Source of the DNA: Phanerochaete sordida
Taxonomy: Eukaryota > Basidiomycota > Agaricomycetes > Polyporales > Phanerochaetaceae
NCBI GenBank assembly: GCA_019973155.2
Contig: BPQB01000099.1
Span: 1-64,000, forward strand
Reading direction: 5' to 3'
Length of the DNA: 64,000 bases
The position numbers and the translations under genes are program-made. Under the pieces are notes generated by a model that was not told the origin of the DNA, did no database searches, and saw only the letters and a program-made list of their open reading frames with translations. Shown piece by piece: positions 11,045 to 59,390 of this stretch (positions are counted from its first letter, which is position 1; the number at the start of each line of letters is the position of its first letter).

Positions 11045-13514
11045 CTACCACTCTGCGACAGGGATGTTTATTCCATCCCACGGCACGCCTAGCTTTATCG
11101 AAGGGATGGATGGCGGCTTGCACTCATTGTCCCTGCCCAATCGTACGTCCAGGATGTCTTGCATGAGAAGAGCACTCCTGAAGAAGTCTTTCCAATGTTC
11201 CCGGGTGAGATTCCTTTCTTTGATGATGTCCTCCATGCGGGTGACCTGAGTGACGTCGACGCGGCACACACCAACTTCGACAGGGTATCCATCTTCCGCA
11301 TCGGCTGCCAGAAACGGCGCGGGTTCGACAAACACCCCGGCTGAGAACGCACGCAGAGCATGTTCTGCCTGCGAAACCGTTCGACGTCGGTCAGCATATA
11401 GTTAGCAGGAGGTGATGCGACATACAGCAAGTACCGACAACATAAGAGCACCGAGCGGTGGTTTCCACTGGCAGTGTGGATCAGACATTCGTTTGAAAAA
11501 TACTTGGCGGCCCACGGTGTCGACGTGGTGAGTCAAGGTATACAGGACAAGCGGCGTCTCGAACGGATATGGCTTCGGGGTCTGTACGGTGTCAAGAAGA
11601 CAAACCAAGTTAGCATGACACGCAGAGATCGTACATGAGACGCCATACCATACTCTCTTCATTCTCATCGTACCAATACCAGAACACACGTTCGCGTTTG
11701 TCGCAGCAAGAGCAGCGGAACCAGCCAAGCTGTTCTTTGATTATATCAGCTACGGCCGCCGGGATCTCGTCGCTGGCCATCCCCTTGCTTTCCAAGATTT
11801 TCGTCATGTGCGCCACGAGGATCTTCAAGCCTCGAATCGCAGTCGAAGCGAAGCCAGATTGCCACCTGCGAACAAAATCCATGGCCTGCACGGAAGACAA
11901 TCAGTCCGAGCGCATGAACGTCGGCGAGGTAGGGGCATACCACTCGAACTCGGGTGTGTCTGTCGTTCCAGAGTTGCCAATGGTACCGATACGCAGGCAC
12001 CTCGTCTAGAATATGCTGTAGCCCGGGAAGATCTGATGTCCGAAAGAGCCGGGCCGTCCCCACTTGCTCGAGCACCAGCGGAATCACTCTGTGCAGGAAG
12101 ACGTTTAGGAGGTATCCACTCTGCGTGCAGCGGGCGCATCGAGTCTCCGGCATCTTTGACTCAAGTCGTCCTGGGACGGGCTCAGGCGAACTGTCCAGGT
12201 ACCGGAACTTGAACTTGCCAGCCTCGATGAGCAGTTGAAACGCTCGATTCCTGAGGTTCAGGTTCTCCGACCACTCCGACCGCCGCGAGCTCTTGATGAC
12301 TTCGACGTGCTGTAGGTGCGGAAAGCGGAGGGCTACGTCGGAGAAATGGACCCAGAGAGATTCCGGACAGTGGGCAAGCGCGTCAGAACACCGACAAGGA
12401 CTATCGTCGACGTAAATGCAGATCCTGCGTACGCGCAGCCGGGTAGGCTCGGCTTGTGCTGCGTTCGCGGTAGGGAGAACAGGGAGGTTGGCCTGAATGG
12501 GGTCGAAGTCGACACGAATCTTCGGGTACATCCATGTGTAGCGATCCGTCTCGCCAGCTATTTCCTTCGCGAATGCAAAAGCTACATCTAGGGTCTGATG
12601 TTAGTCTATCACCCAGGGAGATATATCTGCTGCGACTGACGTTTCATGCATTGTGCATCGATAGCAAGGTTGGAAGGCTCACGCGTTGCAAAGATTTCGG
12701 TGGACGACCCAAGCGTGAAGGTGTCGAGTAAGTCACGTAGGCTCGCAAAATCTGCGGGATCGAGGAAACACCTCGGAGTCCGGTGTGGCCTGGACGGTGG
12801 GTCCTGAGGAGGAACGCTGTCCAGAACACGTGGAAAGATGGCGAGAGAGAGTAACAGGTCGTCGCATTGTGTGACACACAAATTAAGGCCGAACGGAGGA
12901 GTGAAGAAATGTTCAGGAGCGGGCTGAACGTCGAATCTTGCCCTCACTACCACTAGTCTCTCGAGGCTTGGGAGGGAACAAAGAAGGCGAGCGAGGACGC
13001 GGCCGTTGGGGAACCAAACATTGCACATGAGAAGGGTGGTGAGGGGTATCATCGATCCCGGCAGAGGACGTGGTAACGCAGGGTCCAGCGTACGCCAGAC
13101 GTACCTGCTGGAATGATGAATCTCCACGGACAGTGACGGTGGGCTTGGCAGCTCCTTGGACAGCTTCGGCATGACATCGATGTACACCCGGTGATGCCAC
13201 AGCATGCCTTCTTCGCTGACCACCGCGCATACTCCTTGGACGAGCTCGTGTATGCGCGATATACTGGGGATGTTTGGGGCATCCAGAATCGCGCAGAAGC
13301 GATCGACGTCGTCTGAAGACGTGAGCCGTAGGTACGGGAAGAGCGAGCGGCGCGCGAGATTGGCCCAGTACTTGCACACTGTCCCGTACGCAGAGAAGGA
13401 ACGTTTCATCGCGCGGTCGAGCACCGAGCGTTCGGACAGGAGGTTGTAGCATCCGTGCCAGACGATCCTCTGGAAGAGCTCTTCCGGGACTTCAGCAGCT
13501 CTGGAAGACTGCAT
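11045..13514 (-). CDS. F-box/LRR-like protein with unassigned C-terminal region (long form 1)
   Basis: Probable substrate adaptor of an SCF ubiquitin ligase. Five exons: 12641-13514, 11941-12581, 11649-11885, 11426-11581 and 11045-11368, giving 743 codons with intron phases 1,0,0,0. The F-box is near the N-terminus (AAEVPEELFQRIVWHGCYN ... CKYWANLARRSLFPYL). A leucine-rich repeat-like middle follows (ALPRPLPGSMIPL, GRVLARLLCSLPSLERLVV). Exon 2 ends in YRYHWQLWND. Exons 3-5 encode the C-terminal region shared with the genes at 19523, 48809 and 56992: RRWQSGFASTAIRGLKIL, then VFWYWYDE, TPLVLYTLTHHV, GALMLSVLA, EHALRAFSAGVFVEP and LGVPWDG. I do not recognise that region. The ATG at 13514 matches the start of the paralogues (MQ-S/T-S-x-x-AE-P). 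Confidence 0.82.
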
Positions 13515-19522: not shown

Positions 19523-22112
19523 ATGCAGACGTCCAAAGCTGCAGAAGTCCCGGAGGAACTGTTCAAGCAAATCCTCTGGCATGCATACGAGTGCGGTCGA
19601 GAAGCTGCGTTCCTCAGTCCACAAACGAAACGCCCCCTGTCTGCCTGTTCAACTGTCTGCCGGTACTGGGCTCGCATGGCGCGCCGTCAGCTCTTCCGTC
19701 ACATGGTCCTGGCGTCCCTGGACGACGTCAAGCGTCTCTGTGCGATCCTCGACGCACCGGTCCTCCCGGGTCTCGAGCATGTCAAGGAGCTTTTAGAGCA
19801 TCTCTGCGCGAAGACAAGCAACAACGGCCCGCCGTGGCACCACCTGGTCTTCCTGACCGTCCTACCTAAGCTGCAGAAGGGCATGCATTTACAAGTGACC
19901 ATTCGCGGGAGTAGCCGCGAGACATGGCGCACACTCAATCCTTCCCTGCCCCGCGCGCTGCCCGGCTCCATCATGCCAGTCCACTACCTTCATATCGACC
20001 ACGCGCACTTCCCCGACGGCCGCGCTCTCGCCCGTCTCTTGCTTTCCGTGCCACAACTGGAAGAGCTGGAGACTCGGAAAGTCGTGTTCAATGTCCAACC
20101 TACCTATGCAGATTTTCTCAGCCCTCCGTTCGGCTTGAAGCTGTCCACCATATGCTCCGATGATCTATCTCTCTGCCTTGCGCTCATTCCACGATTGCTC
20201 GGCAACGCGCCTCAGGACGGGGTACGCCTCAAGGTTGAACGTACTGCGAGGATGATTCTTGAGGAAGGCGATCTTGCAACGTTGGACGCGCTTTTCGGTC
20301 TGTTTCGCGCCACGCCCGCAGTATTCCGTCTGTCATATAGGCATGGCAGAATCCTCCCAGCTGGGCCACTCGTAACTTGTACGTGACGCATCCGATCCTA
20401 GTGGGTCGACGCTGAACTTTGCCACAAGTCCTGAGGCTTTCTATGCTGGTGAACGACACTCAAGGTCTTCGCGAGAAAGCCGCTCCCTACGTAGCTCCTC
20501 CGATCATCGCTGTGCTGGAGCCTGCTCCTCCAGGGCTTCGCAGGCTAGGCATAGAAGAAACGGAAGCACAAGAACGACCAGCAGTTATGTACGTACGGAT
20601 GGTCTACATAGATCTCGTCGAAGAAGCGCTGTCGCATCTCGCATTCGAACTCTGCGACGAGCAGCTTTGGACGCGGCTAGCAGAGACAGCGGTCCGATTC
20701 CGACACTTGCGCGCCGTCGAGGTCACGTCCTCCACGCGCGCGGAGGTGCGCAAATGGGCGTACACGCTCAGGCTCACGAACGCGGCGTTCCACGCGCTGA
20801 TCAAGGACGATAAGTTCCGGTACCATCTCCTCGATGTCTCCGCCAATCCAGCGGCGCCACGGACGTCTGCGCGCGTGGAGACGACGATCCCTGCCCTTGC
20901 ACAAAAGTACAGTCTGGATGACCTGCCGAAGGAGACACACGGGACCTTCTCTCGGATAGTCATGCCCCGTGTCCTGCAGGAGCTGGGCCGTTTTCGACCG
21001 TTTTCGGAGCCCTGCCCGACTGGGCTGCACAGGATGATGTGCTCCATGGCAGCCTACGAATCGCTACGAGTGAACGACGTGGTGGCTGTCAGACTAGTAA
21101 GCACAAACTAGTTCAGATCACAATGCAGAACGAGTACTCACATATCTACCCTCTACCTAGGCGAAGGGACGTATTCGGGATTGGCAAAGCGGGTTCGGCA
21201 CAGCTGCGATCCAGTGCATGGCTTTAGCCGTGGACCACGTCACGACGACGATGCGGGACAGAGGAATGACAGACGACGCTATCAGAGCAGCCCTCTCTGG
21301 GTACATCCAGAAGCAACTCGGCCCTTCGAGCGAACATAGTGCTTGCTCGTGTCGCCGGTTCTGGTGGTGGTATCACGATGGCGGCCATGCAAAGGTATGC
21401 TCCTATTTCCTCTGACTATGAGGATGTAAAGTTGACGACAACCCGATCTCTGACTGACAATTTTGTGGCCACCGCAGCGGTCTTTCGGAGGCCCGCTCGT
21501 CCTGTACGCTTTTTCGCATCATATCATAGCGGCGGGCGGAACACAGATCCTCCGTCAAGAGCGCAGAGGCCCCTGGAGAGGCCCAGCGCAGGGCGCACTC
21601 GTGCTTTCGGTGCTGGCCGTGCGTAAATTCCGTCAGTGTGAGAGTACGTTGACATTTTGCTGCAGGCACAGCGCGCCCTCCAGGCGTATTCGACAGGAAC
21701 GTTCGAGGAGCCGCCGTCCTTCTCGGCGTCGAGCTGGCGAGACGGCTGGCATTACCTTGGAAAGTCCGCCCACACAAGCAGGATGCCGACGGCACACTTG
21801 GACAAGGTCGTCCCCCAGCTCACTATCCACGAATGGCATCACCTTGTTCATCGCGCGCTCGCTGTACGTGGATATGTGGACATCACAATGGCCTCGCCGA
21901 AGGGGAAGCAGCGCGAGGATCCAGCAAAAGATTTGATGGGGACGCTTTGGGATGGAATCTTGGGCGTTCCAGACGATCCTCTACTCTCCGCCAGCCCTGT
22001 CGCGGAGAGTGTCAAGGTTGGGAGGATCGTTCCCAGGGCCGTCACTGCCGACGAATCCAGGGAGCCATCCAGCGGCGGCTCCTCGCAGACTTGTGGATTT
22101 GTGTTTTTTTAG
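19523..22112 (+). CDS. F-box/LRR-like protein with unassigned C-terminal region (long form 2)
   Basis: Paralogue of the gene at 11045-13514, on the other strand. Exons 19523-20378, 20429-21096, 21161-21394, 21478-21618 and 21666-22112 give 781 codons, again with phases 1,0,0,0. The F-box reads KAAEVPEELFKQILWHAYE with CRYWARMARRQLFRHM. The LRR-like part has PRALPGSIMPVHYL and GRALARLLLSVPQLEELE. The C-terminal region has IRDWQSGFGTAAIQCMAL, CRRFWWWYHD, GGPLVLYAFSHHI, GALVLSVLA, QRALQAYSTGTFEEP and WDGILGVPDD. Exon 5 is about 120 bp longer than in the paralogues and ends in an extra Ser-rich tail. Exon 2 lacks the YRYHWQLW string of the other three. An AATAAA hexamer at 22241 may be its polyadenylation signal. 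Confidence 0.82.
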
Positions 22113-23366: not shown

Positions 23367-23489
23367 CCTGACAGAGCATATGTACTAAACGCAGCCTAGT
23401 GACTACAGGTCCATTTTAACGGGAGATATTGAACGCAAAATCGAGAAAGTGAATGTCAAATGTTGGGTATCAGCGCACGCCCTCCGAGG

Positions 23490-24580
23490 CTACTGAGCGT
23501 CCTTCAGCCTATGCACGACCTGCCCGATACTCCCCATCGTCCACGTCCCACCCCACCCCTGCCTACGTTCGCTGCGCATCGTCCTCGGTGTCTTGGGCAC
23601 CGCGCCACCCGTCTTAGCGGTCTTGACCCAGTAAGGCGCCTGCGGCGAGGGCAGGCTGCTCGCGGGGATAGTGACGAGACGCGCGTACGCGCTCGCCTGA
23701 GGGACAACGACGACCGCGCGCGGCGCAATGAGCGCAGGCGGGAGAGGCGACTTCACGCTGAGCAGCGCGGACGGCGGCGGCGGCGAAGGCAGCGGGGCGT
23801 CGGGCGGCGGGAGACGTGCGGCGAGGCGGGCGGGGCGTGCGCCGAAGCGGCGGCGGAACTCGGCCATGCGGCGTGCGTCACCGTCGACGATCGCGCGCTG
23901 TGCAGACTCGAGCGGCGTGTCCGACCCGGGGCGCGCGGCGCGGTTGACACCGCCGGGATGGCCGTCGAGCGTCGCTGCGCGCCGCGCCGTGGGGCTGTGC
24001 ACCGCGTCGCTCGTGAGCGCGACGCCGCGCTGGATGTCGCTGAGAGAGCGGCTCCTGCGAAGGGTGCCGCGGCGCCGACGTGGGACGCTGGGCGTGCCCG
24101 GAGCAGCGAGTGGCGCCCACGCTTCGGCGTCGACGGACGTCGGGGACTTGACGGTCGCGAGGTGTGCGTCGTCGGATGCGCGCACGCGGTAGAGATCGAG
24201 GAACGTCGAGACGTGCGCGGCCGTGGTGGCGACCTGGCCGAGCGAGGGGTACACGATCTCGGCAGGCATGCTCGAGGCGAGGCACGCGGTGAGCTTTTCC
24301 ATGCGATGGCGGGGGCTGTGCAGGGGCGAGCAAGGCGTGAAGAAGAGCGAGGGCGACGTCCCGCTGGCTGGAGGAGTGGGCCTAGAGGAGATTAGGATCT
24401 GATGATAGTCTCGATACAAGGATGGTCGCACCTTCCGCTAACCTGCAGGAACGCGCTGTCTCTCAAGGGCGACTGGGGCGAGATCCCGGAGAACCTATGG
24501 GCCTGAGAGAGCTGCAGCGCCCTCGGTACATTCTGCCTGCGAGCAGCACGAGAAGTGGCAGCAGCGGTCCTGTTAAGCAT
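23490..24580 (-). CDS. Unknown Pro/Ser/Arg-rich protein, possible mitochondrial presequence
   Basis: Exons 24432-24580 and 23490-24381 give 346 codons; the 50-bp intron has phase 2. The start at 24580 yields an Arg/Ala-rich N-terminus (MLNRTAAATSRAARRQ) like a mitochondrial targeting sequence. A downstream ATG at 24302 (MEKLTACLASSM) could be an alternative start. The middle is rich in Pro, Ser, Arg and Ala and low in complexity. The C-terminus ends with GWGGTWTMGSIGQVVHRLKD. A related tail (GGGTWTTASTGLALDRFMDD) is encoded about 2 kb away at 25903-26094, overlapping the end of the four-unit F-box gene in another frame. Function unknown. Confidence 0.6.
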
Positions 24581-25374: not shown

Positions 25375-25790
25375 TCACGAAATGCGGAATAAAACTGCCA
25401 CTGGGCCTGGTGCCGACTTCGACGTCCGCTGCGTCCCATTTTTGCGCAGCGCGACGGTACTGCCTAGCACTATCGATCCACTGCGTACGCGCAGCTTTTC
25501 CGCAGCAATCAGCGGGGCGAATACGAGATCACTGATGCCGCATTCAGCGTCGCCCATCGCAGCGTAGCGGACGAGCTCGACCGCGCGGAGACGCGGCAGG
25601 CCTGCGAAGTGGGCCCACGAGCCAGTGCGCTCGCCGAGTCTATGTTCCGCAGACTGCGCGAGGTCGCCCATAATTTTGACGTGTATCTCGCTGATCTGCA
25701 TCATCGTCAGCACCGGCGTGGACAGCGTTCTGGTTGCACTGGGCGTGAGCAACACGTTCAACTTACGGAAGAGTTGTCTGGTGCGTCTGT
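25375..25790 (-). pseudogene. Relic of the second exon of a short F-box unit
   Basis: The minus strand encodes a stretch matching the C-terminal exon of the neighbouring F-box units: LPRLRAVELVRYAAM, ISDLVFAPLIAAEKLRVR and NGTQRTS. In the intact single-unit gene the same places read LPRLRAVELVRPATL, VSDRAFAALIAAGRLRAR and NGTQRVP. No F-box or first exon accompanies it, and the sequence downstream of NGTQR is unrelated. It is a remnant of a tandem copy and probably not expressed as an F-box protein. Confidence 0.75.
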
Positions 25791-25993
25791 CTAAGACGCT
25801 GTATATAATGTCTGCATGTCGGCCAGTTGGTCATTAATTAGTACAAATGGAGTGAAGAGCATGCGACGTACATGTGTATTGTAGAACCTGCCATAAAGGT
25901 GCTCAGTCTGCAGCCACATCGTCCATAAACCGATCCAGAGCAAGCCCAGTACTTGCCGTCGTCCACGTCCCGCCGCCCCATCTGTCCGGATCC

Positions 25994-28900
25994 TCACCGC
26001 GCAGCGCCCTGGGAGCCTTCGGCAGCACTGGCAATATCGCTGCGCCCGCCCTCGCGCTCTTGGTCCGGTAGTCCGGGTGTCCGCTGCGTGCCATTTACGC
26101 GTTGCGCGACAAATTCGCCATACTGCCCTTCAATCCACAGGGCATTCATCTTTCCCGCAGAAATGAGCGGCCCGAACGCACGGTCGCTGATGCCGAGCGC
26201 GGTATCGGGCATCGCGGCAGGGCGGATGAGCAGGACAGCACAAAGGTTCGGCAAGCGCAGCGCGGTCTCTGCGAAGCGAGACCATGTGTGCTCAACGAGT
26301 GTATGGACGGTGGCCGGTGAGAATTCCTGGGAGAGCATAATACACACCGTGCCGACGTGCATTCCCGTTGGCTCACAGACGGACGAGTGAGGCGTGTCGA
26401 TCATGAGGCGCACGAACACGGCAGGACTGAGCTGTCTCTTGGTGTGGCGCTCAAGGTGGGAGAATGTAAAGTCTGCGTGGCGATCAGTGATGACTGGATA
26501 AATGCAAACTTGACATGGCGTACATAGATGCTCGGGCTCGTTTGCACTGAACTGGAGATCCACGCAACGAATGCTGGGTTGGCATTGCGCCGGCAGCGCA
26601 GCGCAGGAGGGTGCGGAAGGTGAACTTTCAAGGATGCTGAGCAAGTGCAAAATTGTGAAGTAGTCGCTGTTGTTGTTGATGCATGCTGAGAGCCGGTGGC
26701 GTCTACGGTTGTTTCTTGAATGCCGGCTCTCATGGCTCGAGACGAGCAGGGGTAGAAGATGTAGCGCAAGCAAGCTGTCTGACTTGATGTTGTGGAGGCG
26801 ACCTCTGTACGGGAAGGCGAGAAATTCGCTAGTAGCAGGCTGAGTGTCGAACGAGATGTTTTGGATGTCGAGTTCGCCGAGTGACGGCACAGATACAAGC
26901 AGCCGGAAAAGCGCATGACCGTCCCTGAAGCGTAATCCATTGAGCATAAGCCCGGAGATGCTCGCTCCAGGAACCGCACGGGGAAGCGCAGCTTGCAATA
27001 TGTGTGGGCTGGCAAGCGGAGAGTCAGCAGTGGCGCAAGCTACAACAATGAAACCGCTGCAGTTGTGCATGGCTTGGGCAGCAGGCGCTGCAAGGTGTAG
27101 CCAAGGTCTTCCTGTGCCGTTGACGAACATGCGGATATGGAATATCAGGTCGGTGATGGGCTCGAGCCCTGCAAGCGTGGGGGCTGCGAGGAAGAGCTGC
27201 AATTGTTGGAAGTCTGCAGCGGAGCGTAGGTCCAGTGAATGAAAGAGGAATTGCCGCGATAGGCGTGCCCAGTAGCGGCACACCCGGCCGATGCACGAGT
27301 GCGCAGTCTTGGCCTCATGCTGGGAGAGCAGTGTGAGCCCGGAGGCACAGGCGTGCCAAACGACATGCTGGAACAATTTCTCCGCATCTTGTCCAGGGCA
27401 CAGAGTGCCTTCCGTGTACCGCCAGCACTGAGAATGGCATGGTCATATCAGAAAGTGTGCTTCCAGATGAATCTGACGTGCTTACAGTCTGTGCAAGCAG
27501 CGCACTGCACCGCCCCGTTGCCTCGCCCAGTGTTCTCCCAGACGCCCGCTGCGTTCCGTTTACGCGTTCCTCGACAATCTCCAAGCGCGACATCTTGCAC
27601 GCAATCCAGTGTGTGCATAATTTCCCTTCAGAAATGAGTGGCGCAAACACACGGTCGCTGATGCCGAGCGCTGTATCAGACATCACGGCAGGGCGTATGA
27701 GCTGGACAGTAAGAAGGTGCGGCAAGCGCAGCGCGGTCTCTGCAAAGCGAGCCCATGTCTGCTCTACAAGTGTAGAAACTGCGGCTGGTACGAGTTTTTG
27801 GAAGAGGTCAATTTGCACCATCACGACATGCATGGCCATCGGCCCGCCTGCAGGCAAGTCAGACACGTCGGGCATGAGGTGCACGAGCATGACAGGACTG
27901 AGTGGTACCCCAGTGTGGCGCTCGACGAGAGAGAATACCAAGCCTGTGTGGCAGTCAGTGATGCTTGGATGATAAACAAGCTTGACATGACGTACATGTC
28001 ATATCGGGCTTATCTGCATCAAGCCCAATACCCTTGCGATAAACGCTGCGCTGATACTCTGCCGGCAGCACAGCACATTCTTGTGCGGAGGATGAACCTT
28101 CAAGGATGCCAAACAATTGCAAGATTGGGGAGTAGTCGCTGTTGTTGTCGATGTATGCTGAGAGCCGCTGATGTCTCCGATTGTTCGCTGAATCCCTGCT
28201 CCCATGGCCTGAGATGAGCAGGGGCAGAAGATGTAGGGCAAGCAAGCTGTCTGACTTGACGCTGTGAAGACGACCTCTGTACGAGAGGGCCAGAAATTCG
28301 CTGGATGCAGGCTGAGTGTCGAACGATATGTTTTGTATCTCAAGTTCGCCGAGTGACGGCACGGATACAAGCAGCCGGAAGAGCGCGCGACCATCCCTGA
28401 AGCGTAATCCGCCGAGCAAAAGCTCGGAAATGCTCGCTCCGGGAACTGCATGGGGAAGCGCAGCTTGCAGTATGTGCGGGCTAGTGATCAGAGAGTCAGC
28501 AGTGGCGCAAGCTACAACAATGAAGCTGCTGCAGTTGTGCATGGCTTGGGCAACAGGCGCCACAAGGTGTAGCCAAGGTCTTCCTGTGCCGTTGACGAAC
28601 ATGCGGATATGGAATGTCAGGTCAGTAATGGGCTCGAGCCCTGCAAGTGTGGGGGTTGCGAGGAAGAGCTGAAGTTGTCGGAAGTCTGCAGCAGAGCGTA
28701 GGTCGAGTGCATGAAAGAAGTGTCGCCGCGATAGGCGTGCCCAGTAGCGGCACACCTGACTGATGCACAATTTCGCAGTCTGGGCATCATGCTGGGGGAG
28801 CAGCATGAGGCCGTAGGCGCAGACATGCCAAACAACATGCTGGAACAATTTCTCCGCATCTTGTCCAGGGCACAGAGTGCCTTCCGTGTACCGCCAGCAC

Positions 28901-31776
28901 TGAGAATGGCACAGTCATATTAGACAGTGTGCTTCGAGATGGATCTGACGTGCTCACAGTTTGTGCAAGCAATGCACTGCATCGCTCTGCTGCCTCACTC
29001 AGTGTTCTCCCAGACGCTCGCTGCGTTCCGTTTACGCATCGCGCGACTGCCTCCCAGCGCGACTCCCCGCCCGCAAGCCAGAGTGCATGCATCTTTCCCG
29101 CAGAAATTAGCGGTAGGAACGCGCGATCACTGATGCCGAGGGCGTAATCAGGCATTACGGCAGGGCGGATGAGCTGTACAGCACGAAGGTGCAGCAAGCG
29201 CAGAGCGGTCTCTGCGAAGCTAGCCCACGTGTGTTCGACGAATGTATGAACCGTGGCTGCTGCGAGGTCCTGGGTGAGGTCGATGTGCATCATGTCGACA
29301 TGCATGGCCGTCGACTCGCAGGTGGATGATACAAGTGCATCGAACTCGGGCAGGATATGCACGAGCACGGCAGGACTGAGCAGTAGTCCAGTGTGGCGCT
29401 CGAGGAGGGAGAATTCAAAATCTGTGTAGCAGTTAGTGATGCTTGGGTGCTGAAAACCCACAATATGACGTACATGTGTGCTTGCTCTGGCCGTAAATGC
29501 AACAAACTCTGAGTTGGCATCTGAACGGTGGCATCTTTTGCTCGGATGTAGATGACGAGCCTTCAGGAGTGCTAGCCAGGTGCAAGAGCGTGAGATAGTC
29601 CTCTGCGTCGAGGAAGTATAATGGGTCGCGTCTGCGCCTGCCTGTTGGCACAATATACCCACACACATGACTTGAGGCAAGTAAGGGCAGAAATAGCAGC
29701 GCGAGAAGCCCGTCCGACAAGACGGTCCTGAGCCGCCATCCATATGGTGGTGCGAAAAAATCTCCAAGGCCAGGCTGGGTGCTGAATGAGACCTTGTGCA
29801 GATCAAGGGTGTCGAGTGACGGGACAGATGCGAGCAGCCGGAAGAGTGCGTGGCCATCCGCGAAGCACAGCCCGTCAAGCACGAGCTTGGAGACATTCAT
29901 CCCAGGAATTGCGCGAGGGAGCGCAGCCTGCAGTATGTGCGGGCACGCAAGTGGGAAATCGGTAGCGGCGTGGATTAAAACAGTGAAATTGTCGCAGTTG
30001 CACATGGCTTCGGCAGCAGACGCTGCAAGATGTAGCCAGGGTCTGCCCGTGCCGTTGACAAATACACGAATGGAGAAAATCAGGTCGGCGATAGGCTCGA
30101 GCCCTACCAGTATGGGTGCCGCAAGGAAGACCTGTAGCTGTCGAAATTCCGCAGCAGAGTGTAGGTCGAGCGAGCTGAAGAGGTCTCGCCGGGATAGGCG
30201 TGCCCAGTATTGGCAGACCCGGCTGATGGGCGATATCGCAGCCTTGGCCTCGTGCTGGGGGAGTAGTGCAAAGCCGTAGACGCAGGCGTGCCAAACGACA
30301 TGCTGGAATAGTTTCTCTCCATCCCAGATAGGGTGCAGATTCCCCTCCGTGTACCGCCAGTTCTGAGAGCAGTATGGTCAGTTCAGATAGGCACAAGGTG
30401 CTTGAAAATATGAAAATGTACCTACAGTCTGTGCAACCAGTCCGCTGCATCGTAGCGCGGCTTGACCCAGCGTCCCCTCCGGTGCCCGCTGTGTCCTGCC
30501 GATGCCCTCGACGACGATCGATCCTTCGTTGTACCAGTGTGTACACAGCTTATGCGCAGCAATGAGCGGCTGGAATCCACGATCGCTGATGCCGAACGCG
30601 GCGTCGCGCGTAGTAAAGGGGCGGACAAGTAGAACCCCGCAGAGATGGCGCAGACGCAGCGCTGTCTCCGCGAAGCGAGCCCACATATGCTCAGCTAGCG
30701 TGTCTTGTGCAGCCGGCGCAAGGGAGGTTAGAAAGTCAATGCACAGCTCCTTGATGTGGATGGCCGTCGGCTCGTGCTCGGACGTGCTTGGCTCTTCGGG
30801 CGTGAAGCGTACGAGCACCCTGGGGACAAGCCGCGTGTAGATGTCGCTATCGCCCTCATCATAGAGGCAAATAGAGAGGTCTGCGCGGTGGTGAGTGGTG
30901 ATCGTAGGCAGAAGAAATTGGTTATGACGTGCATATCAGTTCGGGATCTGCCTGTTGTTTGACCATCTCGACGATGCGTAAAGACTTTGCCCGACGCACA
31001 GCCCAGTCCTCCACAGATGCGGAACCCTCGAGGATGCGGAGTAGCTGTAGGAGCGTGTGGTAATCGTCGCTGTCAAGGAGGCGCGTCGCGCGCGTGCGGC
31101 GCTGGTGAGTAGGAGTCGGTCGGCTATGTCGGCCATAGCTGTTGCTCGCGACGAGCAGCGGCAGGAAGTGCATCACAAGCAGGTTGTTTGACATAATGTA
31201 GTTAAGGCGCCACAGGTACGGCGATGTAAAGTCCGTCCTTGTGGGCTGGCTGTCGAAAGTGAGATCGTGTAAGATGAGATCGCCGAGCGTCGGAATGGAC
31301 GCGAGCAGCCGGAAGAGCGTGCGCCCATTCGCGAAACGCAGGCCCAGAAGCTGAAGTGTGGAGATATTCAGTCTAGGGAGCGATCGCGGAAGCCCGGCGT
31401 GCAGCACGTATGGACTCGTGAGTGACGATTCGTGGTTGGGATTTACTATGACAGTAAGTTTTTTGTGCATAGCTTGAGTCATGGACGCAGCTAGATGAAG
31501 CCATGGTCTGCCAGTACCTTTTACAATCACATGGACGTCATAGATTAGATTGGCGATAGAATCGAGTCCTACAGGCGTCGGTGTAGCCAGGAAGGCCTTG
31601 CACTGCTGGAGCTCCGTGGCGGAACACAGCGTGACTTCGTAGAAGAGCTTTCGCCGGACCAAATTTGCCCAATAGCGGCACACCTGGCCGATGCGCGACA
31701 TAGCATACTTGGAGTCGGTGGTTAGCACATTCTCGATTATGTGCTCGAACAGCTCTTCTGGAATGCGAGTGGCCAT
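25994..31776 (-). CDS. Predicted four-unit tandem F-box/LRR-like protein
   Basis: Four F-box units appear to be spliced into one protein. Exons: 30933-31776, 30426-30880 (unit 1); 29474-30362, 28958-29421 (unit 2); 27996-28899, 27486-27943 (unit 3); 26524-27427, 25994-26472 (unit 4). They total 5,397 bp, 1,798 codons, without a stop. Only unit 1 has a start (ATG at 31776, MATRIPEELFEHI). Units 2-4 begin with a conserved linker (WRYTEG) directly after a phase-0 3' splice site, then EKLFQHVVWHxC. The matching 5' splice sites lie in the conserved tails of units 1-3 (VAQT or LAQT, then GTAGGT, GTGAGC, GTAAGC). The intron inside each unit is phase 1. The unit-1 internal intron is GC-AG (GCACGT). 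Each unit has an F-box, LRR-like repeats and a VEHTW/AEHMW-ARFAETALRL block. If the units are not fused, units 2-4 have no initiator. Likely SCF adaptor. Confidence 0.62.
25994..31776 (-). repeat. Four tandem F-box gene units of about 1.4-1.5 kb
   Basis: Units run 30426-31776, 28958-30362, 27486-28899 and 25994-27427 on the minus strand. First-exon lengths are 844, 889, 904 and 904 bp, second-exon lengths 455, 464, 458 and 479 bp. Units 3 and 4 are the most alike, including their splice sites and the 58-bp introns before them, so they are the youngest duplication. Unit 1 is the most diverged. Confidence 0.85.
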
Positions 31777-32341: not shown

Positions 32342-33700
32342 TCAGCTCCTCACTTCGCCCCTCCTCTCCTTGGGCACCCGCTGCGTCCCATTCACGCGCA
32401 GGGCGACGGTCCGGTTCGAGTACGCATGCTCGAGCCACCGCGCGCGCAGCCTGCCCGCAGCAATAAGCGCTGCGAACGCACGGTCGCTGACGCCAAGCGC
32501 GGCGTCGTGCAGGGTCGCGGGGCGCACGAGCTCGACGGCGCGCAGGCGCGGCAGGCGCAGCGCGGTCTCTGCGAAGCGCGCCCACGTGCGCTCCACCAGA
32601 ATGTCCGCCGCGGCCGGCGCAAGCGTGTCGGCGAAGCTGATGTGCACCGCGTCGACGTGCATCGCCGTGGGCCCGTGCGCGGGCGCGCCGGGTGCGTCGG
32701 GCGTGAGGTGCACGAGCACCTCGGGGCCGAGCCGTGCGCCGCCGCGGCGCTCGACGAGGTAGAGTTGGATGTCTATGTGGCACTGAGCGCGCGTGTATGC
32801 GAGCGGAGAGAGGCGCAGCGTACAGGTCTGTGCGGGTCCACCCGCATATAGTCGGTCGTGGATCCGCCCGACGGCGCGGCGGCACTCGACCGGCGGCACG
32901 GCCCAGTCATCCGCGGACACGGAGCCCTCGAGGATGCTGAGCAGGTGCAGGAGCGTGCGGTGGTCCTCGACGTCGAGGAGGTACGGCGGCGCGCGCTCGC
33001 GGCGGCCTCTGGTCGCGGGGTGGCCGCAGCCGTAGCTTGCGACGAGCAGCGGCAGGAAGTGCAGCGCGAGAAGATCGTCCGACACGACGCCTCCGAGGCG
33101 CCACCCATACGGCGGCGCGAAAAAGTCGCCGGTCGTGGGCTGGGCGTCGAACGCGATGTTGTGTAGGTCGAGCGCGCAGAGCGATGGGACGGACGCGAGC
33201 AGCCGGAAGAGCGCGCGTCCGTCTGCGAAGCGCAGCCCGTCGAGCACGAGCTTGAAGACGTTTCCACTTGGGAGCGACCGCGGAAGTGCAGCCTGGAGCA
33301 TGTGTGGGCGCGCGAGTGGGCAGCCGTCGGCGGGGTTTACGACCACGGTGAAGTATTCGCAATTGCACATGACCTGATTGGCAGACGCTGCGTTGTGTAG
33401 CCAGGGTCGGCCAGTACCGTCTACGATGGCGCGAATGGAGAAAACGAGGTTGGCGATAGGCTCGAGGCCTGCAATTCCCGGCGCCGCAAGGAAAGACCGC
33501 AGCTGCTGGAACTCCGTGGCGGAGCGCAGAACGAGCTCGCCAAAGAGCCGGCGCCGAGACAAACGGGCCCAGTAGCGACAGACCTGGCCAGAGCGCGAGA
33601 TCGCAGTCTTGGTTTCGCGCCGAAGGGGCAGCGCAAAGCCGTAATCGCAGGCGTGCCAGAGTATGTGTTCGAATAGCTCCTCAGGGATGACATTTGCCAT
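32342..33700 (-). CDS. F-box/LRR-like protein, single unit (short form)
   Basis: Exons 32824-33700 and 32342-32772 give 435 codons. The 51-bp intron (T|GTACGC...CATAG|AC, phase 1) sits at the position used by every unit of the neighbouring four-unit gene. It is a multiple of three without a stop, so retention would add 17 residues. The ATG at 33700 gives MANVIPEELFEHILWHACDY, a clean F-box, with CRYWARLSRRRLFGEL. LRR-like features are GRALFRLLASVPSLCALDL and LLALHFLPLLVAS. The second exon has LVERTWARFAETALRLPRLR and NGTQRVPKERRGEVRS. The gene is GC-richer than the four-unit gene and ends without its splice-donor tail, so it stays a single unit. Confidence 0.82.
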   Translation of the reverse strand: MANVIPEELFEHILWHACDYGFALPLRRETKTAISRSGQVCRYWARLSRRRLFGELVLRSATEFQQLRSFLAAPGIAGLEPIANLVFSIRAIVDGTGRPWLHNAASANQVMCNCEYFTVVVNPADGCPLARPHMLQAALPRSLPSGNVFKLVLDGLRFADGRALFRLLASVPSLCALDLHNIAFDAQPTTGDFFAPPYGWRLGGVVSDDLLALHFLPLLVASYGCGHPATRGRRERAPPYLLDVEDHRTLLHLLSILEGSVSADDWAVPPVECRRAVGRIHDRLYAGGPAQTCTLRLSPLAYTRAQCHIDIQLYLVERRGGARLGPEVLVHLTPDAPGAPAHGPTAMHVDAVHISFADTLAPAAADILVERTWARFAETALRLPRLRAVELVRPATLHDAALGVSDRAFAALIAAGRLRARWLEHAYSNRTVALRVNGTQRVPKERRGEVRS

Positions 33701-48808: not shown

Positions 48809-51224
48809 TTAGGACAATACAGCCGGTGCCGGCTCGTCCCACGGAATCCCCAGCGGCAGTCCCTCGTCCTTGCCCAGCTCCCGCGGCGCCTCTCCGGGCC
48901 GCATCTCGTCTATTTGCTTGCGCATGGTAGACGCACCGCTGACAAAAATATTCCAGTGATCAAACGGCATTGCGCGAATAGCCTTCTGGAGATGCGGGAT
49001 ACGGGTGATGTACCGGCTGGTTCCAAAATACTCCTGTTCAACGTAGTGCCAGCCGTCCATCCAGTTCGACGCGGAGAAGATACGAGGTTCGATGAAGACT
49101 CCCGTGGAGTATGCTTGCAGGGCTCGTTCCGCCTACGGGCATACAGAGTAAGAATAGGGGGTAACGCAGAGTATGATGTCACGTACCGCGAGAACAGAGA
49201 GAATCAAGGCCCCCTCTGGCGGCACCCAAATGCCAGGTATGTACCCACCCAGCGGCCGAACGTGGTTGGAGAAAGTATAGTGAATTAATGCGGAACCGAA
49301 CAGCTATGATTCGGTGCCCATGATCATAAATAACCCATCGCGACTGCATTATAGAAACGAACGCACCTTGCCTTGCCCAGCCACCAGCTGGTACCACCAG
49401 AACGGTCGGTCTACGTCATTTGCGTCGCCAAGGATTTCCTGGATTTTGTCCGACAGTACTAGCTTGGCAGCGTCTTTGTCAAGCCCTTTGCTGAGTAATG
49501 TCGCCTTCACATGGTTCGCGAGGATTTTCAACCCCTGAAGGGCGGTTGCGCCAAACCCAAGTTGCCATTCTTGAAGACGGTCTCGCACCTGAATCGCAGA
49601 TATCCTGTAAGCTACATCTCACGCATGAGCATTGCCACGCACCAGTCTTGCACAGATCTCCCGATCTTGCCACAGTTGCCAGTGGTAGCGGTATTCCGGG
49701 AGCTCGTCCAACATGTGCTGGATCTGTGCCAAGCCTGGATCCGAAAATGCATCACGCGTCCCCATTTTCTGGATCATGCGTAAGACGATCTTGTTGGTGA
49801 ACACGCCGCGAACCTCTTCCGGCAGGTCGTCGACTTCATACCGCAGCTCCGAGCCCGGCAGCCGTGGCTCGAAGTCGTCCATGCCGAAGCCGTACGCAGT
49901 GATCTCGGCGTCGGCCGCCATGAACTTGAGCTTTCCGGCCTGGATGAGCGAGCGGAACGCGCTGTTGAGCGTTCCGAGCTGCGTCTCATGCCTGTGCGAC
50001 TGGGACACGAGCTGAACATGACGCAGGCCCGAGAACTTGAGCGCGATCGCGGCGAACCGCGCCCAGAGCTCCCCACCACACAGCTCGAAGGCGCGGTGCG
50101 GGGCCTCCCCGAGGTGTACGGCGATCACCTGCACTTGAAGAGGAGTCGACCTGTCCGGCGGATCGACGACGTCTTTGGCTCGGCGCGAGTCTTCGTCTGC
50201 TGGGGCATCGGCGAGAGCAATCATAATTGGCGGAGCCGTCGACTGGAAACCTGTACGATCACTCGGATCTTTGTCCCGCTTGTTGAAAAATACACCTGCC
50301 ACACATAAATTCAGTATACGATATGTTGGCGTGAACCTGATGAAACCCACAGTTCAGAGTCGGTACATCCCTTGAGGCAGAGTGCTCTGCAGCTCTATAG
50401 TCGCGTGTCATCTCGATTTGCTGCGAAGGAGTTGTGCCAAATAGGTTGAGGAGCTCGCAGATGATTCCCAGCTCGCTCGCCGATAAATGGTATTTCGCGA
50501 TACGGCCAGGACTATCCGTAGGTCCATGGGAGGTGGTGTTCCTGAGCAAGCGCGGGAGCATAGCTATGGGGAGAGCGACATCGTCCGCCACGACGCTGTG
50601 CAGACGCAGGCCATACGGAAGGAGGAGAAAGTCGTCGGGGGTCGGATCGATGTCGAACGAAATATTCTGTGCAAACAACTTCACCAGCCGCGGCATGGAC
50701 GAAAGCAGCCGGGCTATTGAGCGTCCGCTGGGAAAGCGCATGTCGTGCATCACGAGGCTCTCCATGGGCATCAGGGAGCCCGCGAGCGGACGTGGAAGGG
50801 CGGGATGCAGTGTACGCCATGGTCGGCGGCCGGTGGGTAGAAGCTCTACGGTGAGGGATACGTTTGGGTGCAGCTTTGGGAGGAGGTCGAGGAAGACGAG
50901 ATGTAGCCACGGTGATCCGTGGCCGTCCGTCATAGCAGTGATGTGCTCTACTAGTCCGGCGATAGAGCATAGGTCGCTGACAGGAATGGATGTCTCCACG
51001 ATGGTGCAAAAGGCCTTGACATCGTCCAGAGATCTGAGCATCGTCATGCGGAAGGCCTCGCGCCTCGCTATTTGAGCCCAATATCTGCAAACTCTGGCGC
51101 AGATGAATAACCCACGCAGTGAGCCTCGTTGCAGGCGTTCGTGTTCTCTATCACGGAAGCACGCGTGCCAGAGTATGATGTCGAACAACTCTCCTGGGAT
51201 CTCCGCGCCTTTCGAAGTTTGCAT
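48809..51224 (-). CDS. F-box/LRR-like protein with unassigned C-terminal region (long form 3)
   Basis: Third member of the long family. Exons 50351-51224, 49643-50295, 49367-49588, 49187-49303 and 48809-49132 give 729 codons, with phases 1,0,0,0. Exons 1 and 5 are exactly as long (874 and 324 bp) as in the gene at 11045-13514. The first donor is GTGGGT, chosen because it restores phase 1. F-box: KGAEIPGELFDIILWHACF with CRYWAQIARREAFRM. LRR-like: GRSIARLLSSMPRLVKLFAQ. Exon 2 ends EYRYHWQLWQDREICARL. C-terminal region: LQEWQLGFGATALQGLKIL, DVDRPFWWYQL, FGSALIHYTFSNHV, GALILSVLA, ERALQAYSTGVFIEPRIFSA, GWHYVEQEYFGTSRYITRIP and GIPWDEP. Confidence 0.83.
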
Positions 51225-56991: not shown

Positions 56992-59390
56992 ATGCAGGTC
57001 TCCAGAGCCGCCGAGCTTCCCGAGGACCTCTTCGACCACATCCTGTGGCATGCATGCTTTCGCAGCTGGAAGCAGAAGATTCTCACATCCGTCGGGAAAC
57101 AGTGCTTCCTCACCTGTGCCGCGGTGTGCCGCTACTGGGCGCGGCTCGCGCGCCGCGAGGTCTTCCGCTTCGTCGCACTGCGCTCCGCGGACGACCTCCG
57201 CCGCTTCCGCGTACTGCTCGACGCGCCCGCTCTCCGGGGCCTCGAGCCCGTCGCGCTCCTTGTGGAGGACCTCATCGCGATAGTCAGCAGCGCCGGCGCG
57301 CCGTGGCTGCACCTCGTCTTCACGAGGGTACTGCCTGTGCTGAAGAAGGACGTCGTGCTCGCCGTGAACCTCCTCCCTGCGCCGGACCACACCTGGCACG
57401 CACTTTCACCAGCGCTGCCGCGCCCGCTCCCGGGCTCCGTGATGCCTGTTCGTACGCTCGCCATCCACAACATCCACTTCCTCAGCGGGCGCGTGCTTGC
57501 GCGCTTGCTGGCGTCGCTGCCGAGGCTCGTGTCGCTCCTCACGGACAATATAACGTTCGGAACCCGTCTTACTTCCCAGGACTTCTTAAGGGTGCCCTAC
57601 GGCTTGAGATTGCATAGCGTCACTTCGGATAGTCTCACCATCCCGCTCGCCCTGCTGCCGCGTCTGGTCAGGAATAGCACCCCCAAAGGTCCATCAGCTA
57701 GACCCAGTCGAGTTGCGGGGTACTTCTTGAGAAGGGATGACGAGACTCATCTATGTGAGATCCTTGGCCACTTTCGCACTGTGCCCTCGGATAGCTATAA
57801 GCTGGTCCGTCAATATGAAGCCTCGCCTAACGACAATCCTGCGTCGACGCGGAACCGTACGTGGACTTCGATCGCAGATGGTAGTCTCCCTCACCGTGTT
57901 TCCCAGACTTCTGGTTCAATACCCATGACCTCGATGTGCACGGCGGCCAGCGATACACCTCTCCCCCGCTCATCATCGTGCTCGAGCCCTATACGATGAC
58001 CTCCGACGCGCCGACACCCCTCTACGTGCGCTTCATCCACATCCACCTCGAGCCCTCCGGCGGGCTCGGCCTCACCGACTACGGCGCGCGGCTCTGGCCG
58101 GCCTTTGCGGCAACCGCGGCCAAGTTCAAGAATCTGCAGTGCGTCGAGGCGATCACGCCGCTCGCGCTCCTCCAGGGCGCGGACGGCCGTGCACCACACG
58201 ACCTTGCGCCCGCACACGAGGCGTTCGCGCCGCTCGTCAAAGCGAACAAGCTCCGCTTTCGCGTCGTCCGCCCGCTTTACGGCCCGTCGGGCGCGCTCGA
58301 GACGGTCTGGCTCGCGTCGCGCCTGCCGCCGCCGCCGCGGCGCCCCGCGCTGAGCGATCTCCCGGCCGACGTGCAGGACGTGTTCATGCGCGCGATTTTG
58401 CCTGCCGTCCTGCGCCACGCCGGCGGCGCCAAGGCGTTCTGGGAGCCGCGCCTGCCTGAGGTCCAGCGCATCCTGGACGCGCTGCCCGAGTATCGGTATC
58501 ACTGGCAGCTGTGGCGCGACCGCCGGGTGTGCGCGACGTTGGTGAGCATGTGGTGCTGTGCAGATGGGTGCTGGCTGATATATAGTTGCGTTTAGGCCCA
58601 GGAGCGTGTGCGCGAATGGCAGTCGGGCTTTGGCGCTGCTGCGCTCCGCGGCATGGCGCTGCTTGCCGGACGCATGGCCGACGCGATGCGGGCTCAGGGT
58701 ATGGATGACGACGCTGTCAGGTCGGAGATGTCTCGTATCGTGAAGACTGGGCTGGGCGACGCGAGAGCTCCCGATCGACGGTTCTGGTGGTGGAACCTGG
58801 TGTTCGACGGCGAACCAAAGGTACTTTGTTGCCCTCTCGCGTTACTAAGAGACCATTCTAAGCGTCTGCTCGGCAGCGCATGTTCGGATCGCCGCTCGTT
58901 CTGTACACTTTCTCGCATCACGTCCAAACTGTGGGGTCGGTCAGAATTCTCATCCAACCGCCATTCGCCCCGTGGCTATCGCCCTCGGGAGCCTTGATCC
59001 TCTCCGTGCTCGCCGTACGTCCATCGTCGCTCAATCATCGTGCAGCATCTGACACCGATACAGGCGGAGCGTGCACTACAGGCATACTCGACCGGTGCCT
59101 TCGTCGAGCCGCGCGCATTCTCCGCTGCGAACTGGAAGGACGGCTGGTATTATAACCAAGCCTGCCACCGCTTCGAGGACATCTCGCGGACTGCCCACTT
59201 GGAGAATGTTATCCGAGATTTACACGGCAAGTACTGGCCGCTGCTGGTCAACTGCGCTGTCGCCGTCCGGGCGCAGGTCGACAGGATGCCGTTGCGCAAG
59301 GGCGAGGGTCTCGGAGTACTAGGGGCGCTGTCTCTAGGGGCGCCTTGGGATGGACCGTTCCTCGCTGCTGGAGAGACCGCAGCGAAATAG
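56992..59390 (+). CDS. F-box/LRR-like protein with unassigned C-terminal region (long form 4)
   Basis: Fourth member of the long family. Exons 56992-57856, 57907-58541, 58596-58820, 58877-59014 and 59064-59390 give 729 codons, the same as the gene at 48809-51224, with phases 1,0,0,0. The ATG at 56992 gives MQVSRAAELPEDLFDHILWH; an in-frame ATG at 56980 lies four codons upstream but falls outside the family consensus. CRYWARLARREVFRFV completes the F-box. LRR-like: GRVLARLLASLPRLVSLL. Exon 2 starts after an intron with NHFWFNTHDLDVHGG and ends EYRYHWQLWRDRRVCATL. C-terminal region: VREWQSGFGAAALRGMALL, PDRRFWWWNLVFDGEPK, FGSPLVLYTFSHHV, GALILSVLA, ERALQAYSTGAFVEPRAFSA, NWKDGWYY and GAPWDG. It is the GC-richest of the four. 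Confidence 0.84.

Follow-up and report, generated by a model that had tools for sequence, protein, structure and literature searches.

Four similar F-box-like units (U1 to U4), arranged in tandem on the minus strand of a 64,000-nt stretch of Phanerochaete sordida YK-624 DNA (the window, which here means the whole stretch analysed), are probably one gene encoding one long protein. The locus is best read as a putative fused gene, young and specific to this lineage, whose product would have one plausible F-box at the N-terminus and four putatively LRR-like modules. In the preliminary description it was proposed that four F-box genes are spliced into one multi-F-box protein. The chain is supported by a shared ATG loss, by selection, by coding-like junctions and by the public gene model, which joins two of the three junctions, but the four F-boxes are not.

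The splice model comprises eight exons which, joined on the minus strand in the order given here, make up 5,397 nt and code for 1,798 residues followed by one terminal stop. Unit 1 opens with an exon (31776-30933) holding the start ATG, the F-box-like match and the first putatively LRR-like part, and after intron 1 (30932-30881, 52 nt) it closes with a second exon (30880-30426) that ends in the tail GLVAQT. Unit 2 (exons 30362-29474 and 29421-28958, intron 29473-29422 of 52 nt) opens with the linker NWRYTEG instead of an ATG and ends in the tail ALLAQT. Unit 3 (28899-27996 and 27943-27486, intron 27995-27944 of 52 nt) runs from the linker CWRYTEG to the same tail ALLAQT, and unit 4 (27427-26524 and 26472-25994, intron 26523-26473 of 51 nt) again begins with CWRYTEG and finishes with a divergent tail and the only stop codon of the array. 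All four intra-unit introns are in phase 1, and that of unit 1 lies at the same position as those within U2-U4; it is GC-AG, not GT-AG, and it is the sole odd splice site of the model. The inter-unit introns (30425-30363, 28957-28900 and 27485-27428) measure 63, 58 and 58 nt and are all in phase 0. Fungal introns are usually 50-70 nt long. The joint frame described earlier was reproduced exactly in coordinates, phases and lengths, including its single terminal stop and the phase 0 inter-unit introns of 58-63 bp. The statement that units 2-4 have no ATG ahead of the F-box region was confirmed as well, the first Met being residue 120 in U2, 32 in U3 and 100 in U4.

If the inter-unit introns are not removed, the frames of U1, U2 and U3 stop 15, 56 and 56 residues past the tail. 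An in-frame intron with consensus donor, branch site and acceptor was found in 21/5,000, 75/5,000 and 53/5,000 dinucleotide shuffles of junctions 1-2, 2-3 and 3-4, respectively, where the last two counts are not independent because these junctions are mutual duplicates. A degenerate pattern of the linker DNA, derived from the three junctions, occurs exactly three times in the 40.8-Mb genome, always at these junctions.

Upstream of the array lies a standalone paralogue (S, 32342-33700, minus strand), which has its own ATG and stop and is closest to the ancestral form of the units. Where the units have their internal introns, S contains an intron-like segment of 51 nt (32823-32773, minus strand, GTACGC...ATAG); it is divisible by three and open in the frame of S, so that S may either be spliced, giving 435 aa, or be read through. 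Downstream of U4 an exon-2-like remnant of a further unit was detected (25417-25824, minus strand, E=3.8e-11), and no match to a first exon adjoins it. The sequence that includes and follows the end of U4 (25840-26110, minus strand) resembles the 3' end of a neighbouring gene (23450-23720, minus strand; local score 86, scored without a shuffle control), and the odd tail and stop of U4 may derive from such a 3'-end fragment. Four single-unit F-box-like family members are also located in the window, at 12618-13484 (minus strand), 19553-20200 (plus strand), 50472-51191 (minus strand) and 57022-57756 (plus strand), of which the second reaches the Pfam F-box-like cut-off (24.3/24.3 bits). It can be said that these 64 kb form a local hot spot of the family, with members in both orientations. 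At least 44 weaker family matches, array exons included, were obtained genome-wide at E<=0.001 (94 of 98 candidates scored). Lineage-specific expansion and fast evolution are common among F-box genes.

The public gene model of the locus, PsYK624_152680 (P0001), is a hypothetical protein of 1,349 aa, and in a protein search with the fused chain it was 100% identical over the best local match. It joins U1 to U2 and U3 to U4 via the same introns and linkers and uses the same GC-AG intron 1, but it removes 31683-31351 and 29130-28059 as introns, so that parts of U1, U2 and U3 are dropped and the U2-U3 junction, with its intron, is lost. The stretches removed have counterparts in S and partly in a P. 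carnosa relative, and therefore both introns are regarded as probable prediction errors over conserved-looking coding sequence. If transcripts confirm the chain, automatic annotation will have both joined and mangled this array, which would be a warning.

The claim of four F-boxes found little support in Pfam. A nearly full-length F-box-like match was obtained in U1, although it is weak (E=0.0012, 19.0 bits, cut-off 24.3). The profile search gave no Pfam match in U2, and U3 and U4 matched the second, C-terminal half of the F-box-like model only, at 13.5 and 12.8 bits, below the cut-off, with exon 1 searched alone; when the whole U4 was scanned, no F-box-like match appeared. S itself scored 15.2 bits against the cut-off of 24.3. 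In none of U1-U4 was there a match above the curated cut-off of an F-box profile (PF00646 or PF12937), two or more recognisable F-boxes per chain were not found, and none of the 41 matches of a genome-wide PF00646 search (150 of 250 candidates scored) fell on the contig of the array. Four functional F-boxes were rejected on account of this absent Pfam support. The membership of the units in the family is seen in a different way: F-box-like is matched at E<=1 by 9 of the 12 family members in the alignment (the best at 2.7e-5, at the cut-off), and the units align with such members across the N-terminal region. Among solved structures the family profile had no sequence match at E<=1, and Foldseek and VIA-align returned weak matches only, which were for the most part LRR proteins with the U2 model and mixed with S; Skp2 chains ranked low. 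Several SKP1-CUL1 modules on one scaffold, as proposed in the preliminary description, are unlikely as stated, given this pattern of weak, absent and half matches in U1-U4. One N-terminal F-box with four substrate-type modules would be a more plausible arrangement.

A tree of 12 proteins, with the other six family members as outgroup, has the form (P. carnosa,(S,(U1,(U2,(U3,U4))))), and the forks shown carry starred support. The start-less units U2-U4 are one clade (support 100/99) and have the linker in common, hence the ATG was most simply lost once, before these units split, although gene conversion between units could mimic such a pattern. The P. carnosa copy falls outside the array in this tree, so that the array appears to postdate the divergence from P. 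carnosa, unless gene conversion produced that appearance. The origin of the junction DNA was approached with the strictly non-coding flanks of S (queries that included coding tail sequence gave higher tail scores and the same picture). At junctions 2-3 and 3-4 the intron and linker are similar to the 5' flank of S, with scores of 62 and 59, above all 500 shuffles (means 26.5 and 24.6, maximum 41 each). The last tail codons and intron resemble its 3' flank more weakly, with scores of 33 and 28, which were reached by 1/500 and 5/500 shuffles. By the likeness to the 5' flank, an intergenic gap seems to have become intron and linker at these two junctions. At junction 1-2 neither flank of S rises above shuffles (86/500 and 108/500 as high), and its origin is presumed solely from its shared linker. 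The tail of U4 gave no match to a flank of S above shuffles, and the 5' flank of U1, tried as a source of the linker, gave none either.

The evolution of the start-less units was described by codon models, in which the overall omega is 0.395. A joint omega of 0.50 was obtained for the start-less branches (U2, U3, U4 and the U3/U4 stem), with omega=1 rejected at p=3e-12, and this value is higher than that of the background (S, U1 and the stem of U2-U4; 0.30, p=0.001). The U2 branch (0.40, p=5e-4 against 1) and the U3/U4 stem (0.33, p=3e-4) were under purifying selection after the start codon had been lost. In the terminal branches of U4 (0.65, p=0.07) and U3 (1.08, p=0.84) no clear constraint was found by these models, and both units look nearly neutral recently. 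The omegas observed for U2-U3 and U2-U4 were reached by 0/60 neutral simulations per run; four runs were made, two with eightfold CpG mutability. The U3-U4 omega of 0.63 is within the neutral range, with values as low or lower in 5/60 simulations, or 11/60 with CpG bias. In neutral simulation a unit stays free of stops in 15/2,000 (U2), 74/2,000 (U3) and 23/2,000 (U4) cases. Alignment gaps among U2, U3 and U4 measure 6 or 15 nt, multiples of three, outside the last 14 residues of U4, where gaps of 7 and 17 nt (sum 24) occur and the tail of U4 differs; between U1 and U2 there are gaps of 4 and 11 nt (sum 15) near the end of exon 1.

In the tails and linkers of the junctions, change is mostly silent and coding-like. 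For tails and linkers together, pS and pN are 0.60 and 0.23 between junctions 1-2 and 2-3 (p=3e-4), 0.58 and 0.23 between 1-2 and 3-4 (p=5e-4), and 0.20 and 0.04 between 2-3 and 3-4 (p=0.0099), in comparisons which overlap in sequences and whose counts were rounded before testing. For the tails alone p is 0.0019, 0.004 and 0.0116 in the same order, and for the linkers alone it is 0.052 for junction 1-2 against either of the others; the linkers of 2-3 and 3-4 are identical and for this reason uninformative. What is expected of fused tandem duplicates, a joint frame under selection across the former gene boundary, was thus found, clearly for U2, the U3/U4 stem and the junctions. A unit without a start codon is hardly translatable alone, and together with the constraint this favours translation of U2-U4 within the joint chain for most of the history of the array. 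By the codon models and the neutral simulations, constraint on U3 and U4 would at present be weak or gone.

The start-less units are depleted of CpG. The observed/expected ratio is 0.92 in U2, 0.84 in U3 and 0.99 in U4, as compared to 1.31 in S and 1.16 in the window, and five of the six 1,400-nt segments with the lowest CpG in the 64 kb lie in the array (chiefly 26601-30800), the sixth starting at 701. In U2-U4 this loss is accompanied by an excess of TpG and CpA, which fits CpG methylation and deamination of repeats and suggests that these units were methylated, and perhaps silenced. Classical RIP was considered and rejected: the TpA/ApT index is low (0.48-0.58 in U2-U4, 0.65 in S), which by the usual thresholds speaks against it, and the TpG/CpA excess fits CpG loss.

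It could be assumed that U1 is a single gene, which ends in the first inter-unit intron (at the unspliced stop 15 codons past the donor) or at the GC-AG intron, and that U2-U4 are decaying start-less copies whose open joint frame is a leftover. Such an explanation would account for the near-neutral terminal branches of U3 and U4, for the CpG depletion of U2-U4, for the GC donor and the early read-through stop of U1 and for the missing F-box match in U2, and the exon-2 remnant beside U4 shows that local copies do decay. Nevertheless, decaying copies are not expected to show purifying selection in the U2 branch and the U3/U4 stem once the ATG was lost, or coding-like change in tails and linkers; moreover, three units are stop-free, no frame-breaking gap occurs in U2-U4 before the last 14 residues of U4, and consensus splice sites are retained at 3/3 junctions. 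This explanation is considered unlikely. Expression of the units as separate genes, each with an internal promoter, a start codon other than ATG or a first exon within the unit before it, perhaps from a polycistronic transcript, is improbable. Each unit is as large as a complete member of the family, for example S, and the selection on U2-U4 would be equally expected if each was translated alone, but the late first Met residues of U2-U4, the ends of U1-U3 without an in-frame stop ahead of the donor, the spacing of only about 60 bp and the constraint on tails and linkers in the joint frame all stand against it.

An artefact of assembly, in which a short-read tandem array has received a wrong copy number or order, might be suspected, as the units are repeats and the YK-624 genome is a MiSeq-only SPAdes assembly (PMC8530024). 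The reads were 301-bp paired-end with a length filter of 150 bp, and annotation was carried out by BRAKER2 with manual curation, RNA-seq not being named (PMC8530024). Exact repeats between units were found up to a length of 77 nt, which is shorter than these reads, hence the units should resolve and the array should be correctly assembled, which makes an artefact very improbable. The reading as one fused gene has its own weak points: the start-less branches are less constrained than the background, U3 and U4 are near-neutral, U2-U4 are CpG-depleted, the chain depends on one GC donor, junction 1-2 and the U4 tail lack a match to the flanks of S above shuffles, and P0001 drops the U2-U3 junction. 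Notwithstanding this, one gene with one long product is held to be the probable state of the locus.

A possible route to such a gene begins with tandem duplication of an S-like gene in the P. sordida lineage. A deletion would then have eliminated the ATG of a copy further downstream, and the end of one copy would have come to lie near the former 5' flank of the next, where splice sites would have turned the leftover gap into an intron and the former flanking DNA into the WRYTEG linker, as is suggested by the homology that junctions 2-3 and 3-4 show to the 5' flank of S. At a later stage the start-less unit with its intron might have been copied by unequal crossing-over, giving U2, U3 and U4. 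The product would most likely work as a single F-box-like adaptor, with the F-box at the N-terminus (U1) and then four similar LRR-like modules, which could bind several targets or one repetitive target; a transcript, a protein, SKP1 binding and a multivalent role are what we infer from the sequence. A more far-reaching and rather doubtful idea is that of a modular, lineage-specific ubiquitin-ligase adaptor that is still growing, with one F-box in front and a variable number of substrate-binding units, each carrying its own intron and linker from a collapsed gap; unequal crossing-over would add or remove in-frame modules, and the number of units would vary between strains. If transcripts confirm the fused chain of U1-U4, it would be a recent example of an intergenic gap in a tandem array turned into an intron that is spliceable and frame-neutral and by which complete genes are chained, with a single copy adjoining for comparison. 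For ubiquitin biology the chain would then be a natural adaptor of one F-box and many modules, the four-F-box scaffold itself being unsupported.

Fused relatives in other species, the search for which had been suggested in the preliminary description, were not returned: the 1,798-aa query and a two-unit profile each gave P0001 only, among the 7,984 and 7,993 candidates scored, namely those sharing most words. A single-unit query (7,999 candidates scored) gave S, one P. carnosa protein, one ENA protein and the C13 protein P0005, named F-box domain-containing by a source. The closest relative returned from another named species is PHACADRAFT_185756 of P. carnosa (P0003, 401 aa), which is 59% identical to S, but it consists of one unit with its own ATG and branches outside S and U1-U4. 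The single-unit members of P. sordida (the four in the window and P0005) have the same motif order around PEELF...VCRYWARLARR..LF as the units, but they keep a Met ahead of the F-box region and contain one unit each. It is well known that adjacent genes can be joined by splicing. Searches of open-access literature on multiple F-boxes, fungal F-box expansion and tandem fusion with F-box genes brought up no fungal case of this kind. Lef-7 of some baculoviruses is reported to have three F-boxes, and further multi-F-box proteins are said to be listed in Pfam (PMC6105029). The array is similar to Lef-7, as described there, in having more than one F-box-type region per chain; it differs in that Lef-7 is viral, with no relation claimed, and in that U2-U4 are without a recognisable complete F-box and the repeat is a whole unit of 450 residues. 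What is unusual in P. sordida is the chaining of four whole F-box-like genes, with introns seemingly derived from intergenic gaps at two junctions and with a single copy still adjacent.
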